The notes beneath the pieces are model-generated. The model worked only from the letters and a program-made list of their open reading frames with translations. It did not search any database and was not told the DNA's origin. A DNA stretch of 64,000 bases from Chthoniobacter flavus (lineage in GTDB: Bacteria; Verrucomicrobiota; Verrucomicrobiia; Chthoniobacterales; Chthoniobacteraceae), in NCBI GenBank assembly GCA_945861435.1, contig CAMAUX010000027.1:1-64000 (forward strand), in the 5' to 3' direction. This document shows, piece after piece, positions 5,773-29,788 of this stretch (within the stretch, counting starts at the first letter, position 1; the number at the start of each line of letters is the position of its first letter). The position numbers were made by a program, and so were the translations under genes.

Positions 5773-5830
5773 AGAGCCTGCAAAGCCTGCAAACAAGGAA
5801 CAGGCATCATCGTCCCCTCCTCCCTCTGCC

Positions 5831-5936
5831 AGCGGGGGTGCGTGGCGCGTGGGGAAACGCGATACGGTGGCTCCCTGCGTCTGCGTTCCGGACTTGCGGT
5901 CACCGACCGCTTACTGGCTTTCATGCCTCCGGCATG
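5831..5936 (+). repeat. Structured dispersed repeat, copy a (3' part only)
   Basis: This copy matches the 3' half of the ~225-bp element whose best copies lie at 28733-28956 and 29109-29334. It keeps the GCGTGGGGAAAC block, a second hairpin (GTCTGCGTTCCGGAC), the GCGGTCACCGACCG block and the terminal hairpin CATGCCTCCGGCATG. The first hairpin is not recognisable. Confidence 0.75.
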
Positions 5937-6030
5937 ACGGTGTGTACGGCATTGCGAGTGCCTGGTTCTCGGTCGGGACGCTCACCGAGGTCTGGCCACT
6001 CGGGCCACGCATTCGCTCCCTTTTTTGCGG

Positions 6031-6071: not shown

Positions 6072-6093
6072 TGCTTCGTTCCTCTACGCCCCC

Positions 6094-6143
6094 GTTTACC
6101 CCGTTTACCCCGTTTACCCCGTTTACCCCGTTTACCCCGTTTG
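6094..6143. repeat. 9-bp tandem array (GTTTACCCC)
   Basis: Five perfect units start at 6094, 6103, 6112, 6121 and 6130 and are followed by a partial unit. The plus strand would read as repeated Phe-Thr-Pro, but no start, ribosome site or conserved flank supports translation. Confidence 0.9.
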
Positions 6144-6158
6144 CGGCCGATCCCTTTT

Positions 6159-6774: not shown

Positions 6775-7105
6775 GAGGCAATGCTCAGCCGATCCGCTGG
6801 GTTGAAAGACGCTTGTCCCAAATGGCGCTGAGTGAAGCCTCAATGCGGCGATGAAAACTTGTCGGATCTGATGTGAGTTTCTGTGGAAACGGAATTGGCA
6901 CCTTAAAATCATCCCGTTTCAAACTCACCCGTTGGGTGAGTCTCTTTGAGCGATCTTCAAAGTCGGTAACGACATAGCTGTTACCCTCAAGTACCCAGGC
7001 ACTGATAGGACTCAGCAGTCGCCTGAACCCGGAGAGTTCCCAATGGCCCACGGAACGCACTGAATGCACGGACCACGCAACAGCCTGTCCCTATCGGCTC
7101 ACTTC

Positions 7106-7137
7106 GGCATGCGGAAGTTGCGCAACTTCCGCATGCC
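7106..7137. repeat. 32-bp perfect palindrome
   Basis: The left arm GGCATGCGGAAGTTGC is followed immediately by its exact reverse complement. It adjoins copy b of the structured repeat, sharing its terminal hairpin sequence. A single arm (CTTCGGCATGCGGAAGTTGCG) recurs near 8112-8132. Confidence 0.95.
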
Positions 7138-7360
7138 GGAGGCATGGGAGCCCATACCGGTCGGTGACCGCAGTTCGGATCGCGAACGCAGGGAACCACC
7201 GGAACCCGTTTCCCCACGCGACGCGCCCCGGGTTGGGGCGCGAGAAGGGCGATGATCCGAGAAAGTGTTCCCGGTCCCGATCGGCTCCACTACTCGCACT
7301 CGCCTGCGCGCCACCGTCGTCCCGAGAAACACGGTGAAGCCCCTTCACTAAGTGCCATTC
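7132..7360 (-). repeat. Structured dispersed repeat, copy b (full length)
   Basis: Read on the minus strand it begins GAATGGCACTTAG, continues through GGGGCTTC and GTGGAGCCGAT, then hairpin 1 (GCGCCCCAACCCGGGGCGC), GCGTGGGGAAAC, hairpin 2 (GTTCGCGATCCGAAC), GCGGTCACCGACCGG and hairpin 3 (CATGCCTCCGGCATG). Order and spacing match the 28.7- and 29.1-kb copies. The stem of hairpin 2 differs in sequence but still pairs. Confidence 0.8.
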
Positions 7361-7435
7361 GGCACAGCTCAAAATCTCCTTACCTCAAGATGAGGGGGGT
7401 GAGCTCAATATGAGGGGGGGCAGCTTCTGTTTCAT

Positions 7436-7553
7436 GGTCCGTGCATTCCGCGCGTTCCGTGGGCCATTGTGCGTACGCCGCCGTCCTTGGCTCCTACCGG
7501 GAATGAGCGGGCCGAGCTTCATGCCACGAGATTTTGCCTGTCCCTATCGGCTC
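7436..7553 (+). repeat. Direct repeat R1, copy 1
   Basis: About 118 bp, starting GGTCCGTGCATTCCGCGCG and ending CCTGTCCCTATCGGCTC, recurs almost unchanged at 7762-7879. Differences are confined to a short central stretch. Confidence 0.9.
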
Positions 7554-7614: not shown

Positions 7615-7681
7615 GCCACCGCATCGGGCGCGGCGGCGAACTGGCCGAACTCCCACGAGATTTTGCCTGTCCCTATCGGCT
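7615..7681 (+). repeat. Direct repeat R2, copy 1
   Basis: About 67 bp from GCCACCGCATCGGGCG to CCTGTCCCTATCGGCT. A second copy with a handful of substitutions lies at 7979-8046. It shares its last 24 bases with repeat R1. Confidence 0.9.
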
Positions 7682-7761
7682 TATCCACGGAACGCACTGA
7701 ATGCACGGACCACGCAACAGACTCTCTGAGCCCCCTCATTCCCACCCCATTCCTTCCGTGC

Positions 7762-7879
7762 GGTCCGTGCATTCCGCGCGTTCCGTGGGCCATTGTGCGT
7801 ACGACGCCGTCCTTGGCTCCGCTGGGGATGAGCGGGCCGAGCTTCATGCCACGAGATTTTGCCTGTCCCTATCGGCTCA
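7762..7879 (+). repeat. Direct repeat R1, copy 2
   Basis: Second copy of the 118-bp unit seen at 7436-7553, offset by 326 bp, ending in the GCCTGTCCCTATCGGCT module. Confidence 0.9.
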
Positions 7880-7978: not shown

Positions 7979-8046
7979 GGCCACCGCATCGGGCGCAGCG
8001 GTGAACTGGTCGAACTCCTGCGAGATTTTGCCTGTCCCTATCGGCT
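7979..8046 (+). repeat. Direct repeat R2, copy 2
   Basis: Second copy of the 67-bp unit at 7615-7681, again ending CGAGATTTTGCCTGTCCC and TATCGGCT, and running directly into the CATCGGCTC satellite. Confidence 0.9.
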
Positions 8047-12151: not shown

Positions 12152-13483
12152 TCACTGAACGCGCGCGCGCAGTTCGCGCCATGTGCGGCCGTCCGGGAAG
12201 GTGTGGTCGGCGAGGGAGTCCGGCTTCATGGTGATGCTGGTGCCGGGCGCGGTGGGCGTAAGGTAGCGGCCGCCGCGCACGATGCACGGGTCGAGGAAGT
12301 GTTCGTGCAAATGGTCGACGAATTCGGTGATGCGTCCCTCGAGCGAGCCGCTCACGGCGATGTAGTCGAAGATCGACTCGTGCTGCACGTATTCGCAGAG
12401 GCCGACGCCGCCCGCATGCGGACAGACCGGGATTCCGAACTTGGCGGCAAGCAGGAGGACGGCGACCACTTCGTTGACGCCGCCGAGCCTGCAGGAGTCG
12501 ATCTGGCAGTAGGCGATGGAGCGCGCTTGGAGGAGTTGTTTGAAGATCACCCGGTTCTGGCAGTGTTCGCCGGTGGCGACGCCGATGCCGAGGGGTTCGA
12601 GGGCGCGTGCGATGGCGGCATGGCCGAGGACGTCGTCCGGCGAGGTGGGTTCCTCGATCCAGAGCGGGCGGTGCGGAGCGAGTGCGGTGGTCCATTCGAT
12701 GGCCTGCGGGACGTCCCAGCGCTGGTTGGCATCGATCATGAGTGCGTTGCCGGAGCCGATCTCCTCGCGGACGATGGCGGCGCGGCGCTGGTCGTCTTGG
12801 AGGTCCGAGCCGACCTTGATCTTGAAGTGGGTGAAGCCGTCGGCGAGGGCTTCGCGGCAAAGGCGGCGGATCTTTTCGTCCGGGTAGCCGAGCCAGCCAG
12901 CGGAGGTGGTGTACGCGGGGTAACCGTGCTGGAGCATTTCGGCTTCGCGCGCGGCCTTGGTGGGGGCGAGGCGCTCGAGCATGGCGAGTGCTTCCTCGGG
13001 AGTGAGGGCGTCGGTGAGATAACGCCAGTCGACGAGTTCGACGATCTGGGCGGGGGAGAGGTCGGAGAGAAGCTTCCAGAGGGGCTTGGACTCAAGCTTC
13101 GCCCAGAGGTCCCAGAGAGCGTTGACGACGGCCGCTGTGGCGAGATGGATGACGCCTTTTTCGGGTCCGATCCAGCGCAGTTGGGAATCGCCGGTGAGGT
13201 GTTTCCAGAAGGCGCCCGGAGTGCGTGTGAAGGCCGCGAGATCCTGGCCGACGACCAGTGGGCGCAGGGCTTCCACGGCGGCGACGACGATCTCGGTGCC
13301 GCGTCCGATGGTGAAGGTGAGGCCGTGGCCCTCGACGCCATCGCCGCGGTCCGTGGAGAGAATCACGTAGGCGGCGGAGTAGTCGGGGTCCGGGTTCATG
13401 GCGTCCGAGCCATCGAGGGAAAGGGAGGTGGGGAAGCGCACATCGCAGATGCGCATGCCGGTGATTTTGCCGAGATGGTTCAT
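12152..13483 (-). CDS. L-fuconate dehydratase (enolase superfamily)
   Basis: A 443-residue mandelate-racemase-type enolase that would convert L-fuconate to 2-keto-3-deoxy-L-fuconate with Mg2+. The sequence follows the fuconate dehydratase family closely: RFPTSLSLDGSDAMNPDPDY at the N-terminus, QLRWIGPEKGV, YPAYTTSAGWLGY, WIEEPTSPDDVLGHAAI, and FVDHLHEHFLDP near the end. Catalytic elements are Lys221 and Lys223 (KIK), metal ligands Asp251, Glu277 and Glu306, and His356 in CPHAGG. Length equals the usual 435-445. It is the last gene of a minus-strand run with the SDR and MFS genes, separated by only tens of bases, which supports a role in fucose or fucoidan-derived sugar breakdown. Confidence 0.92.
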   Translation of the reverse strand: MNHLGKITGMRICDVRFPTSLSLDGSDAMNPDPDYSAAYVILSTDRGDGVEGHGLTFTIGRGTEIVVAAVEALRPLVVGQDLAAFTRTPGAFWKHLTGDSQLRWIGPEKGVIHLATAAVVNALWDLWAKLESKPLWKLLSDLSPAQIVELVDWRYLTDALTPEEALAMLERLAPTKAAREAEMLQHGYPAYTTSAGWLGYPDEKIRRLCREALADGFTHFKIKVGSDLQDDQRRAAIVREEIGSGNALMIDANQRWDVPQAIEWTTALAPHRPLWIEEPTSPDDVLGHAAIARALEPLGIGVATGEHCQNRVIFKQLLQARSIAYCQIDSCRLGGVNEVVAVLLLAAKFGIPVCPHAGGVGLCEYVQHESIFDYIAVSGSLEGRITEFVDHLHEHFLDPCIVRGGRYLTPTAPGTSITMKPDSLADHTFPDGRTWRELRARVQ

Positions 13484-13509
13484 GGCCGGAGAGGTTGGGG
13501 GGGATGGGG

Positions 13510-14265
13510 TTACTTGCCTGCGCTCCAGCCGCCATCGATGAGCTGGCAGCTGCCGGTGACCATGGCGCTTTCGTCGGCGGCGAGGTAGAGGGCGGCTGCG
13601 GCGACTTCATCCGGGCGAGCCATGCGGCCGTTGAGCTGGGTGGAGGCCATGTCGCGGTAGGCGGCCTGGGGATCCGGGTACGAGGCGATGCGGGCTTGGA
13701 CGAAGGGGGTTTCGACGCGGCCGGGGCAGATGGCGTTGAAGCGGACGCCGGTGTGCGAGTGGTCGAGTGCGAGGGCGCGGGTGAGTCCGACGACGGCGTG
13801 TTTGCTGACGGTGTAGGCGAGGCGGTCGCGGACGCCGAGGAGGCCGCCGATGGAGGCGAGGTTGATGACGCTGCCGGAGCCGCGCTCGAGCATCGCGGGG
13901 ACGAAGGCTTTGCAGAGGTTGAAGGGGCCGCGGACGTTGACAGAGTGAAGGCGGTCGAGGTCGTCTGCTTTGGTTTCGTGGAGGTTGCCGACATGGCCGA
14001 TGCCGGCGTTGTTCACGAGGACGTGGAGCTCGGGAAGGGTGGCGGCGAGGGCGAGTGCGGCGTCCGGGTCGCTGACATCGAGCGAGGCGAAGTGAGCCTG
14101 GGCGCCTGAAGAACGCAGGGATTCGACGACGGCGCTTCCGCTTTCCGCATCGCGGTCGGCGACCCAGACGATGGCGCCTTGGCGGGCGAAGGTTTCTGCG
14201 ATGGCGCGTCCGATGCCGGAGCCGGCGCCGGTGACGAGGGTGTTTTTGTGGTCGAGGCGGAACAT
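13510..14265 (-). CDS. SDR family dehydrogenase, probable 2-keto-3-deoxy-L-fuconate (or L-fucose) dehydrogenase
   Basis: A 251-residue classical short-chain dehydrogenase. The Rossmann motif TGAGSGIG lies at residues 12-19, NNAG at 85-88, and the catalytic triad is Ser138, Tyr151 and Lys155 (YTVSK). An acidic residue after the second strand (ADRD) suggests NAD+ rather than NADP+. It lies 26 bases upstream of the fuconate dehydratase gene in the same direction. In known oxidative fuconate pathways an SDR oxidises 2-keto-3-deoxy-L-fuconate, and a related SDR oxidises L-fucose itself; the context supports one of these but cannot separate them. Confidence 0.85.
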   Translation of the reverse strand: MFRLDHKNTLVTGAGSGIGRAIAETFARQGAIVWVADRDAESGSAVVESLRSSGAQAHFASLDVSDPDAALALAATLPELHVLVNNAGIGHVGNLHETKADDLDRLHSVNVRGPFNLCKAFVPAMLERGSGSVINLASIGGLLGVRDRLAYTVSKHAVVGLTRALALDHSHTGVRFNAICPGRVETPFVQARIASYPDPQAAYRDMASTQLNGRMARPDEVAAAALYLAADESAMVTGSCQLIDGGWSAGK

Positions 14266-25966: not shown

Positions 25967-28291
25967 ATGCATCCTCCTGCGCTCTGTCTCGCTGCAGCAC
26001 TCGCCCTTGCAGCACTCCAGTCCCCTGCAGCGCACGCTGCCGAATCGCCGAAGGAAACCAAGGTGTCGGCAACGACCGGCACTGCGTCCGCACCGGCTGG
26101 AAATCCAGGCCCAGCCGAGCCGGCCGGTTCGGCGGTGTATTACCTTAACCAGTTCGGGAAGATCAAAACGCCCCAAGGCGCCCAAGCCGCCTTCGAGGCT
26201 GCTTCGGAAGCGATCCAGAACGGCGGCGGTGGTCTCCTCATTATTCCCAACGACACGGTGGCGGGATGGGTTCCGAAAAACCAAGGGCAGCATGAGTTGC
26301 GCATTCCGCCGGCACCCGCGCCCGCGAAGACGTGGAGGGAGGGGCCCGGAATGATGGTCTTTGATCCGCGCGGGAAGCAGCCCACGTTTCACCCGGCGCC
26401 GATCACCGGATTAAACATCCGCCGAGTGCTGGATCTGCCGGAGGGCGAGAGTCTGCCGCATTGGAATTACAATCCGATGCTCAACTTCGAGAACGTCATC
26501 GCGCGCGGTTCGACGAGTTACCACGACTGGCTGCAGGAGGATGTGGAGCCCGGCGAGAACGCGCGGTTTTATGTGGCGACGATCCGGGGGCTGTTTCCGG
26601 GGATGTTCATCAACGCCAATGCGTGGAGCACGGTGGAGCGGCTGTATGTGAAGTCGCTGGGGTACGACCGGGAGAAGCGCGCATGGTACTTGGTTGCGGA
26701 GACGACCAAGCCTTTTAAGAAGGGCATCCTGCTCTCGAACAAGAACCACGTGAACATCCTGAAGATGGAGACGTCGTCGCATAACGAGAATCAGACGTTC
26801 GACATCCATCTGCTTCGCAAGAATTACTCGCAGGGCGACAATTACCTGCTCGATGCGCGGTTCCGCTACATGGGGGATGTGCATTCCACCGCGGGCGATG
26901 AGAACGGCGTCATTTACGCCGCCTTCATCCAAGCCGAACTCAACGCATTCAAGAGCACCGTGGACAAGTGGACTCCGGAGACGGGTGAACTCGTCTTCAA
27001 GGGCGGGGCCAATGCCGCGACCCTCGGCTCGGGCCGGCCCCTTCTCAACATGAACCCCAAGAAGTGGGTGACAGCTGGAGACGCTTACATCGTGCGTCCC
27101 GCGCAGTCCGAGACGGACCCGCTCAATGAGCCCGCCCAATCGGTCTTTGAGGGGAAGCGTTACCCTTCCACATCGGGGCCGAATCATCTGGGGATTACTG
27201 GCATTCATGTGGGCGGTCTGATCCGTCTTTCGAAGGAGGCGCCAGTGTCCGCCGAGTGCGTCGGACGGTATTTTGCGGTCGATCAGGATGATGAGTCACC
27301 GAAGGGCACGCATGCCCGCCGCTGGTATCTGATCCATGATGTCAAAACGAACCCTGACGGCACGAAGGATATCGAGATCGTGCGGCACTGGTGGGGGGCG
27401 AAACCCGCATCCTCACCCACCCTCTACAATCCTGCGAATTACTCGTTCGACGGCAATCTGCGGCCGCTCAAGTACGCGATTGTTCCTGGAGTGAATGTGT
27501 ATGAGGTTTCCAAAGCCCTGCCCGGACCGGGATCCAAGCCTGTGCTGATGCTGTCGCCCTCGCCTTTTGCGGGAAGTGCGGTCGACTTCGCGCCCGGGGA
27601 TCCGGTGGAGCAGGCCATCGGACCGGATCCCTTCCATCCCCAGCCGTTCCGGAGTTGGACATGGGATGAAGTGCCGGGCAGTTTCCCGGCCTCCTATTTT
27701 GACGTGCGCAATCTGGGCCAGGTGCAGCGGCACTCCGTCCTCTCGGTTGGCGGTGGTTCAGGGAGTCTCGCGACGGACCAGGAGACGCGGTGGAGTCATG
27801 CGCCGGTGTTTGATCGGTGGATCGATCTGAGCGCGACGGCGCGTAATGGCATCGTTTTCAATGCGGATGTGCAAGGTGCAGCCCTCCTTTTTTTGCAGCC
27901 CCATGAGCGTGCGCAGCCGATCCAATGGGCTTACGGCGGGGAGGGCGCATCGAAGCGGGCCAGCCTCTCGGTCTCGCCGGACGAGGGAGTGCTGCGTTTT
28001 GAGGGCGGTGGTGCAGCGATCCCGGGAGGTCTCGCACAGATCAAGGGCCTCTCCGGATCCGACACCAAGGCGCGCAACTTGCGCGGATTGGGAGTGGCGG
28101 TGAGCGCGGGCGCGAAGGAGGTGGGCGTGGAGTTTCGGGAGGAGGAGGCGGATGAGAAGTATGTGATCTTTGTGGAGAGCACATGGATGACGATGCACAT
28201 GGTGTCGGAACGCACGCCGAAGGGTTTCAAGGTGCGGTTTTCCGAAGGTGCGCCCGCCAACGCCGCCATCCACTGGCTGCTCACGCGGTGA
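25967..28291 (+). CDS. Large secreted protein, possible pectate-lyase-like beta-helix, unknown function
   Basis: A 774-residue exported protein. A signal peptide (LCLAAALALAALQSPAAHA) precedes a Pro/Ala-rich linker. Residues ~60-100 (AFEAASEAIQNGGGGLLIIP) resemble the first turn of pectate-lyase-3-type beta-helices, where AxxxAxxxGGGxVxxPxG opens the helix. The middle has long stretches with repeated YLVAETTKPFKKGILLSNKN-like strands, and LGITGIHVGGLIRLS. The last 150 residues look like a separate beta-rich domain. I recognise no catalytic motif. The 17-bp tandem array begins directly after the stop codon. Role in extracellular polymer binding or breakdown is speculation. Confidence 0.75.
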   Translation: MHPPALCLAAALALAALQSPAAHAAESPKETKVSATTGTASAPAGNPGPAEPAGSAVYYLNQFGKIKTPQGAQAAFEAASEAIQNGGGGLLIIPNDTVAGWVPKNQGQHELRIPPAPAPAKTWREGPGMMVFDPRGKQPTFHPAPITGLNIRRVLDLPEGESLPHWNYNPMLNFENVIARGSTSYHDWLQEDVEPGENARFYVATIRGLFPGMFINANAWSTVERLYVKSLGYDREKRAWYLVAETTKPFKKGILLSNKNHVNILKMETSSHNENQTFDIHLLRKNYSQGDNYLLDARFRYMGDVHSTAGDENGVIYAAFIQAELNAFKSTVDKWTPETGELVFKGGANAATLGSGRPLLNMNPKKWVTAGDAYIVRPAQSETDPLNEPAQSVFEGKRYPSTSGPNHLGITGIHVGGLIRLSKEAPVSAECVGRYFAVDQDDESPKGTHARRWYLIHDVKTNPDGTKDIEIVRHWWGAKPASSPTLYNPANYSFDGNLRPLKYAIVPGVNVYEVSKALPGPGSKPVLMLSPSPFAGSAVDFAPGDPVEQAIGPDPFHPQPFRSWTWDEVPGSFPASYFDVRNLGQVQRHSVLSVGGGSGSLATDQETRWSHAPVFDRWIDLSATARNGIVFNADVQGAALLFLQPHERAQPIQWAYGGEGASKRASLSVSPDEGVLRFEGGGAAIPGGLAQIKGLSGSDTKARNLRGLGVAVSAGAKEVGVEFREEEADEKYVIFVESTWMTMHMVSERTPKGFKVRFSEGAPANAAIHWLLTR

Positions 28292-28304
28292 GCCTCGCGA
28301 CGCG

Positions 28305-28525
28305 CGTCCGCGCACAGCGCCCGTCCGCGCACAACGCCCGTCCGCGCACAGCGCCCGTCCGCGCACAGCGCCCGTCCGCGCACAACGCCCGTCTGCGCAC
28401 AACGCCCGTCCGCGCACAACGCCCGTCCGCGTACAACGCCCGTCCGCGTACAACGCCCGTCCACGCACAACGCTCCTCCACGCACAACGCTCCTCCACGC
28501 ACAACGCCGCTCCACGCACAGCGTG
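28305..28525. repeat. 17-bp tandem array (CGTCCGCGCACARCGCC)
   Basis: Thirteen contiguous 17-base units begin 13 bases after the upstream stop codon. The left units are CGTCCGCGCACA(G/A)CGCC; the right units decay to CGTCCACGCACAACGCT and CCTCCACGCACAACGCT. There are no unique spacers, so it is not a CRISPR array. Because 17 is not a multiple of three, it is open by chance in several frames. Confidence 0.95.
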
Positions 28526-28537
28526 GTAGGCTGCCGC

Positions 28538-28650
28538 CGTGCCGGAGGCACGAGAGCCATTAGCCGGCGGTGGACGTAGTCCGCAAAGCGGACGCAGGGA
28601 ACCGCCGGTTTCAGAAAAAACACGCGGGGCGCCCCGGCAGAGGGCGCGAG
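28538..28650 (-). repeat. Structured dispersed repeat, copy c (3' part only)
   Basis: On the minus strand this has hairpin 1 (GCGCCCTCTGCCGGGGCGC), CGGTTCCCTGC, hairpin 2 (GTCCGCTTTGCGGAC), a CGTCCACCGCCGG block and hairpin 3 (CGTGCCTCCGGCACG). Hairpins 2 and 3 carry A-T to G-C pair exchanges relative to copies d and e. Its 5' side is interrupted by the 9-bp array. Confidence 0.8.
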
Positions 28651-28671
28651 AGGCGAGGTGAATACGGGGGA

Positions 28672-28726
28672 CTACATGGACTACATGGACTACATGGACG
28701 GGATGGACGGGATGGACGGGATGGAC
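28672..28726. repeat. 9-bp tandem array (CTACATGGA then GGGATGGAC)
   Basis: Three CTACATGGA units are followed by three GGGATGGAC units in the same nine-base register. It joins copy c and copy d of the dispersed repeat. Confidence 0.9.
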
Positions 28727-28732
28727 GGGTGG

Positions 28733-28956
28733 GAATGGCACATAGGCGGGGCTTCGCCGTGGTGTTTGAGGGGGCCGACGCCGGCAGGCAGACGGCTGCA
28801 AACAGTGGAGCCGATGAGGACAAGCGAGGTTTCCTCTATACTCCTCCTTCTCGCGCCCCAGACCGGGGCGCGTCGTGTGGGGAAACGGGTTCCGGTGGTT
28901 CCCGCAATCCGCTTTGCGGATTGTGTTCACCGACCGGCTTTCATGCCTCCGGCATG
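28733..28956 (+). repeat. Structured dispersed repeat, copy d (full length)
   Basis: The order is GAATGGCACATAG, GGGGCTTCGCCGTGG, GGCTGCAAACAGTGGAGCC, hairpin 1 (GCGCCCCAGACCGGGGCGC), GTGGGGAAACGGGTTCC, hairpin 2 (ATCCGCTTTGCGGAT), TTCACCGACCGG and hairpin 3 (CATGCCTCCGGCATG). From 28751 the match to copy e is nearly perfect and extends 3' to about 29018. Confidence 0.9.
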
Positions 28957-29108
28957 CAGACGGTGAGAGCGACTGTTTCGTGGCCGAGCTATCCCATCGA
29001 GGCATGGCAGATGCCCTTACTATTGAGGATCGCGAAATAGGGTGACCCGCTCCGCGCCCAGAGAATGAGCCTTCCGGATGTCATTGGGGAGCCGATAGGG
29101 ACAGGCGA

Positions 29109-29334
29109 GAATGGCACTTAGATAAGGGGCTTCGTCGTGGTATTTGAGGGGGCCGACGCCGGCAGGCAGACGGCTGCAAACAGTGGAGCCGATGAGGACA
29201 AGCGAGGTTTCCTCTATACTCCTCCTTCTCGCGCCCCAGACCGGGGCGCGTCGCGTGGGGAAACGGGTTCCGGTGGTTCCCGCAATCCGCTTTGCGGATT
29301 GTGTTCACCGACCGGCTTTCATGCCTCCGGCATG
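29109..29334 (+). repeat. Structured dispersed repeat, copy e (full length)
   Basis: Same layout as copy d at a constant offset of 378 bp, so the 268-bp block at 29129-29396 is a direct duplicate of 28751-29018 with no indels. It is preceded by GCCGATAGGGACAGGC, the reverse complement of the module that ends repeats R1 and R2 in the 7-8 kb desert. Confidence 0.9.
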
Positions 29335-29788
29335 CGGACGGAGAGAGCGACTGTTTCGTGGCCGGGCTACCGCATCGAGGCATGGCAGATGTCCTTAACC
29401 TAAAAACGGCGATGGGACGAGGCGTTGAAACGGAAGCCTTTCAAAGGCAGGAAATTCGCATTGCTCCGCAATGAACTGATCGGGTGAGAATACACTCCGT
29501 TGTAAAAAGCTGCGTTTGAACGCACGCCCCCGTTTTCGGGAATTCCATTCACGTTTTCAGGCTTCACTCAGTGCCATTCGGCACAGGCAAGGTTTCCTCG
29601 CGTCATCCGCCGTCTTTCTCGTGCCCCCTGTCGGCGGTGTACGCGGGGCCGGATACGGCGGGTGGTGGGGGTGGATGCACGTGAGCGCCGCGTTTTGGAG
29701 CGCGCGAAATGCGTGCTTCGAATGGGCGGGCGATATTGGCTGAACGCGTGGAAACCGAAGGCCCGGGCCCTTGTTGGGGCTAGTGGGG

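Follow-up and report, generated by a model that had tools for sequence, protein, structure and literature searches.

In REPtrons and REPINs, short palindromic REPs are associated with a transposase of the TnpA-REP or RAYT kind (PMC6006769, PMC8266576, PMC3116915). GTAG-tagged REPs and TIRtrons have already been noted in the verrucomicrobium O. terrae (PMC3733652). The TnpA-Y1 transposases of subclass 1.2, which are mostly from Cyanobacteria and Bacteroidetes, are entered with a "no" in the REP column of the published classification (PMC6006769, Table 1). The IS4 subgroup of the IS4 family is characterized by ends of the form -AATR--------WTW and direct repeats of 10-13 bp (PMC2266710). The Acido-Lenti-1 motif (Rfam RF01687) was considered by Weinberg et al. 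to be probably an RNA and not cis-regulatory (PMC2864571), and a 2026 paper describes it as little known (PMC13298647). Our literature search found no paper tying Acido-Lenti-1 to a transposase.

The dispersed repeat of Chthoniobacter flavus described here combines known kinds in a new form, as a REP-type unit carried by an IS4-family MITE. The REP-type unit is very probably the terminal unit of a TnpA-Y1 transposase of subclass 1.2, nested in the MITE. The initial annotation had suggested a REP/MITE-type mobile element and was right on both counts, as the core is of REP type and the ends are those of a MITE.

The window, which is the whole 64,000-nucleotide stretch of DNA analysed, is contig C27 of the C. 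flavus genome (5.35 Mb, 105 contigs). It holds three full repeat copies and two fragments (Table 1). The places, order of parts and strands of these five copies agree with the initial annotation, as do the variants of hairpin 2 (ATCCGC/GCGGAT, GTCCGC/GCGGAC and GTTCG/CGAAC) and hairpin 3 (CATGCC/GGCATG and CGTGCC/GGCACG). Within the window, the copies are confined to two intergenic stretches, as had been stated. The ~225-bp repeat exists, but its 3' boundary was drawn too early, since complete copies extend a further ~70 bp to an inverted AATGGCAC end. The count of five is correct, but the copies are not uniform: some possess MITE ends and some consist of the bare hairpin core.

Copy A matches the left-arm profile over positions 1-71 (E=8.3e-15) and the right-arm profile over positions 2-63 (E=3.7e-16), and its 3' limit is placed where similarity stops. 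Copy B contains ~180 bp of extra sequence ahead of the right terminal inverted repeat (TIR). It is longer than the size range of the target-site duplication (TSD) test described below, and its TSD pair was read from the sequence. The 7-kb copy has lost its right MITE arm, none being detected by arm-profile search. Other repeats are present in the neighbourhood. A tandem array of 17-bp units (near CAACGCCCGTCCGCGTA) occupies 28249-28554, between the end of an open reading frame at 28291 and the first repeat copy. Tandem repeats of 9 bp adjoin repeat copies at 28669-28731 and 6090-6147 (ATGGACTAC/ATGGACGGG; CCCCGTTTA). The 7-kb element is surrounded by at least four copies of a second dispersed inverted repeat, CAATGGCCCACGGAACGCACTGAATGCACGGACC (7041-7083, 7427-7469, 7685-7726 and 7762-7820).

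Table 1. Repeat copies in the window and their parts.
Feature	Position	Strand	Remarks
Copy A, IS4-type MITE with three-hairpin core	28733..29019	+	left end intact, right end truncated
Three-hairpin core of copy A	28848..28956	+	model R1, 101.8 bits
Copy B, same IS4-type MITE with core as copy A	29109..29579	+	
Copy B, left TIR	29109-29121		
Copy B, right TIR	29567-29579		minus strand reads GAATGGCACTGAG
Copy B, left TSD, gggacaggcga	29098..29108	+	
Copy B, right TSD partner, ggcacaggcaa	29580-29590		9/11 match to left
Three-hairpin core of copy B (putative TnpA-Y1 terminal unit)	29226..29334	+	model R1, 102.4 bits, E=2.7e-16
Copy B, hairpin 1, CGCGCCCC/GGGGCGCG	29230..29250	+	
Copy B, hairpin 2, outer arms CCGGTGGT/ACCGACCGG	29270..29315	+	
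Copy B, hairpin 2, inner palindrome ATCCGC/GCGGAT	29285-29299	+	
Copy B, hairpin 3, CATGCC/GGCATG	29320..29334	+	
Core without MITE arms	28538..28652	-	model R1, 108.3 bits
Core of 7-kb copy	7132..7246	-	model R1, 95.3 bits
7-kb copy, left TIR	7348-7360		left arm E=4e-20
Diverged core fragment without MITE arms, hairpin 1 degraded	5829..5937	+	profile match 5785-5941, E=2.9e-24

A covariance-model search of the complete genome, which the initial annotation had proposed, finds at least 150 copies, and BLAST finds 54 places with a best E value of 1.8e-120. The repeat is therefore far beyond chance. Many dispersed copies are a feature of REP-type elements, and intergenic placement is seen within the window. 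Copies with the 3' half of the repeat outnumber those with the 5' half. Among 147 copies, both MITE arms are present in 23, only the left in 7, only the right in 38, and neither in 79, some of which run to contig ends. Many copies lack the left arm and start at GAGCCGATAGGGACAGGCAA.

The AATGGCAC...GGGGCTTC stretch lies outside the fold and is an IS4-family inverted repeat. A genome of the same genus (G001) has six matches to its first 29 bp, and the sequence adjoining them encodes on the other strand the C-terminus of an IS4-type transposase. In C. flavus, the AATGGCAC end recurs in inverted orientation ~300 bp downstream, which makes complete elements of 303-310 bp (six copies) or 288 bp (two copies). 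These eight elements are flanked by 11-bp target duplications, a feature that the initial annotation had recommended looking for at the copy ends. The flanking 11 bp are 78% identical, compared with 13-39% at neighbouring lengths. Matches between the two flanks of the same element amount to 69 of 88 positions, compared with 48.6 (sd 6.2) for permuted pairs (1/2000), so a shared target motif alone does not account for them. Both traits of an IS4-family MITE, IS4-type terminal inverted repeats and a target duplication of 10-13 bp (here 11 bp), are thus present.

A complete insertion sequence with the MITE's ends, the autonomous partner expected of such an element, is found in a relative of the same bacterial family (G014). 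It is 1,552 bp long, with the TIR GAATGGCACTAAGATAAGAC and the TSD cggactgaccc, and encodes an IS4-family transposase (NF033592, 1.3e-66). An IS4 transposase with these ends was not found in the C. flavus assembly, where the partner may be unassembled or lost. The DDE_Tnp_1 genes of this genome (L082 and L083) were rejected as partners, being without the MITE's ends. In G001, contigs C14, C17, C22, C39, C145 and C225 end inside the IS4-family element, which is probably multi-copy and collapsed in the assembly. Because contigs break inside this element, its absence from an assembly is weak evidence.

The motif GGGACAGGCAA occurs 149 times in the C. flavus genome, compared with 2 occurrences of the reversed control. 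It forms same-strand clusters whose consensus is GAGCCGATAGGGACAGGCAA-AATTTCCTC. In the window, it is located on the minus strand at 7534-7544, 7663-7673, 7859-7869 and 8028-8038.

The earlier statement that no transposase is present holds for the window but not for the genome. Contig C37 harbors an HUH/Y1 transposase gene of 148 aa (13525-13971), the kind of associated RAYT/TnpA gene that the initial annotation had advised searching for. The gene is bracketed by inverted cores at 13393-13499 (-) and 13978-14091 (+), with hairpin 1 being the part of the core nearest the gene, and two further cores lie downstream. Bracketing of an HUH/Y1 gene by inverted repeat copies, a REPtron trait, is seen here and in the homologues described below. 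The protein contains the motifs DHVH, WQ and YILRQEEHH, and scores above the NCBIfam cut-off for IS200/IS605 and below that for REP-associated transposases. As its Y-motif is YILRQEEHH and not the Y---NP of class 2 RAYTs (TnpA-REP proper), it is assigned to subclass 1.2. It is the only TnpA copy in the genome.

Large Y1 transposases (L077-L081) were rejected as the partner of the core, which does not flank them. These five Y1_Tnp open frames of ~390-480 aa (contigs C20, C86, C15, C64 and C78) represent a second transposase family in the genome. The frames that were read through are closely alike and have the Y-motif YIDLNP (subclass 2.1/2.3-like). The large Y1 transposases are adjoined by the GGGACAGGCAA variants GGGACAGGCAATTTATC and GGGTCAGGCAATTTATG; their class is published as being without REPs.

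The association between gene and core was assessed at 80 homologous loci, mostly of Verrucomicrobiota and Planctomycetota. The Y...Q..HH motif is kept in 76 of the 80. Of the 68 testable loci, 51 have flanks that share inverted repeats of 40 bits or more, compared with 9 of 203 mismatched flank pairs. The core profile itself matches 36 of the 80 loci, typically at the gene ends, on the minus strand upstream and the plus strand downstream. Of the window genome's relatives, 56 were compared: 27 possess both gene and core, 7 the core only, 3 the gene only, and 19 neither. The core is found in 27 of 30 relatives with the gene and in 7 of 26 without it (Fisher p=1.5e-6, relatedness ignored). Sixteen gene-carrying genomes contain the core 2 to 124 times each. 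In two relatives (G057 and G064), the listed cores are mostly minus/plus pairs separated by tens to a few hundred bp, similar to REPINs. In C. flavus, 138 of 147 copies examined are not in head-to-head pairs. Together with the single TnpA copy, this suggests that, in this genome, TnpA-driven spread may date far back.

A tetranucleotide directly follows the hairpin 2 arm. It is CTAA in 44 and CTAC in 9 of 56 transposase-linked units, and the other strand accordingly reads TTAG or GTAG at the stem foot (53/56). The foot is degraded in many of the C. flavus copies (CTAT in 18 and CTAA in 14 of 56).

Hairpins 2 and 3 of the core correspond to the Acido-Lenti-1 RNA. A permissive Rfam scan of window positions 28400-29700 yields one weak match, RF01687 at 28538-28570, which covers the hairpin 2/3 end of the 28.5-kb copy. 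With 20.7 bits, it does not reach the gathering cut-off of 37 bits. At gathering cut-offs, the scan of the window gives only a tRNA and no family at the repeat copies. RF01687 scores above the cut-off at transposase ends in relatives (L113, L110, L130, L115, L101, L103, L138 and L184), with up to 47.7 bits in the transposase flanks, and lies on both sides of the transposase, in inverted orientation, at L130 and L115. An RF01687 match is located within 500 bp of the gene at 18 of 59 scanned transposase loci when weaker matches, listed down to E limits of 0.5 and 0.05, are included. RF01687 matches are found in 27 of 30 relatives with the gene, compared with 9 of 26 without it (p=1.9e-5).

Covariation was assessed on a hand-named structure of 28 pairs in 58 C. 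flavus copies; the fold given by RNAalifold for the 58-copy alignment was misleading and was replaced by this structure. Pairing is observed in 95.2% of cells, compared with 32-40% when the partners are slid. Double-changed cells number 28, compared with 8.1 in shuffled alignments of these copies (0/500, shared descent ignored). When transposase-linked units of other genera are added, the numbers are 55 and 19.3 (0/500, shared descent ignored). Double changes are present in hairpins 1, 2-inner and 3. The compensatory change proposed from five copies is thus borne out. Cells with G-T and A-C are about equally frequent, at 30 against 26 and 18 against 22. This balance favors neither strand, which is expected of a DNA signal and not of an RNA; strand-specific wobble pairing, a trait of structured RNA, is not seen.

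Significant covariation, along with the correspondence of hairpins 2-3 to an Rfam sRNA family, could point to selection for the fold of a structured, dispersed non-coding RNA or of the RNA component of an RNA-guided nuclease. Rfam presumes as much for Acido-Lenti-1. We consider this reading highly unlikely. The balance of G-T and A-C cells speaks against it, and sixteen RF01687-like matches, identical ones counted once, have 195 pairs, of which 191 are Watson-Crick and 1 is G-T, a pattern that RNA helices do not show. In addition, such matches flank a transposase on both sides in inverted orientation, a search for a sigma-70-type promoter pattern found none, and many of the at least 150 copies have MITE ends and TSDs. 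The folded RNA offered by the initial annotation is not upheld, given the balanced wobble cells, the lack of any Rfam family at the cut-off in the window copies and the lack of a sigma-70-type promoter pattern.

Two other readings would each dispense with one of the two layers. If the repeat were an IS4 MITE only, the hairpins would be incidental palindromic filler and the transposase gene would happen to sit in MITE debris. We consider this highly improbable. Both arms are indeed present in 23 of 147 copies and one arm in 45 more, but homologous transposases in relatives are flanked by the same core, which contradicts it, and 79 copies have no MITE arm at all. Conversely, the element could have started as a three-hairpin REP whose "MITE ends" belong to the TnpA-mobilised unit, with no IS4 element involved. 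The great abundance of GGGACAGGCAA (149 against 2 controls) would allow the flanking repeats to be a target motif. However, the permutation test of the TSDs controls for the motif, one duplication, on contig C29, differs from GGGACAGGCAA, and there is a complete insertion sequence that has these ends and codes for an IS4 transposase, making this reading very improbable.

A nested REP-type unit and MITE could have arisen as follows. The core would be recognised as folded single-stranded DNA by the small HUH/tyrosine transposase, TnpA-Y1 of subclass 1.2 by its motifs, whose gene, lying between two inverted units, makes up a REPtron. In related genomes, inverted pairs of units are scattered without the gene, presumably through cutting and joining by TnpA at the hairpins. 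In C. flavus, IS4-family ends may have come to enclose one core, perhaps once a pair of them lay on either side of it. The MITE formed in this way, whose complete form measures 303-310 bp, would have been spread in trans by an IS4 transposase with a preference for GGGACAGGCAA-like targets, generating the 11-bp duplications. The 28.7-, 29.1- and 7-kb copies are MITEs of this kind in partly eroded form, and the other window copies are bare units. With GAGCCGATAGGGACAGGCAA inside the element as well as at the target, recombination from one to the other would remove precisely the left arm, which may explain its frequent loss. On this view, the compensatory changes come from DNA hairpins being selected or copied, and not from a working RNA. 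The anatomy, the ends, the TSDs, the link of gene to hairpins and the covariation are seen directly, and movement of the elements by TnpA and the IS4 transposase is inferred.

Acido-Lenti-1 is probably no RNA family but the DNA unit that TnpA-Y1 of subclass 1.2 recognises; in C. flavus, an unrelated DDE (IS4) transposon would have captured and amplified such a unit. Its likely reassignment to the DNA elements provides a candidate function for an orphan Rfam "sRNA", which recent work still attempts to interpret as a regulator (PMC13298647). A TnpA-Y1 subclass thought to be REP-less would gain cognate repeats, and the hairpin unit of a single-strand transposase is seen riding in a double-strand transposon. 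Covariation alone is usually taken as a sign of RNA. Here, DNA hairpins explain it better, because the wobble pairs show no strand bias, and the symmetric wobble test provides a simple means to separate DNA-hairpin cases from RNA.

The core resembles the described systems to different degrees. As in REPtrons and REPINs, one HUH tyrosine transposase gene stands between hairpin units in inverted orientation, copies are numerous and dispersed, and relatives show them as inverted pairs (PMC6006769, PMC8266576, PMC3116915). The (T/G)TAG foot beside the stem in transposase-linked units, degraded in many C. flavus copies, may be a further likeness. The core differs in being a three-hairpin unit of ~115 bp instead of a short single palindrome of 20-40 bp, and its transposase has the Y...Q..HH motif of subclass 1.2 instead of the Y...NP of class 2. 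GTAG-tagged REPs and TIRtrons are likewise palindromes with a 4-nt tag by the stem, but the tag of the core is mostly TTAG, with GTAG in 9 of 56 units (PMC3733652). The transposase fits TnpA-Y1 subclass 1.2 in its 148 aa, DHVH, WQ and YI..Q.EHH (PMC6006769, Table 1), but is found here among Verrucomicrobiota, Planctomycetota and other groups, and its hairpin flanks are clear. The MITE ends fit the -AATR--------WTW pattern of the IS4 subgroup, and the 11-bp duplication falls within its 10-13 bp (PMC2266710), whereas the window copies are without a transposase and carry the REP-type unit instead. Acido-Lenti-1 shares with the core hairpin 2, CTAA(T) and hairpin 3 (PMC2864571); it differs in that hairpin 2 of the window copy is longer, with a match of 20.7 bits, and in that Rfam lists it under sRNA genes.
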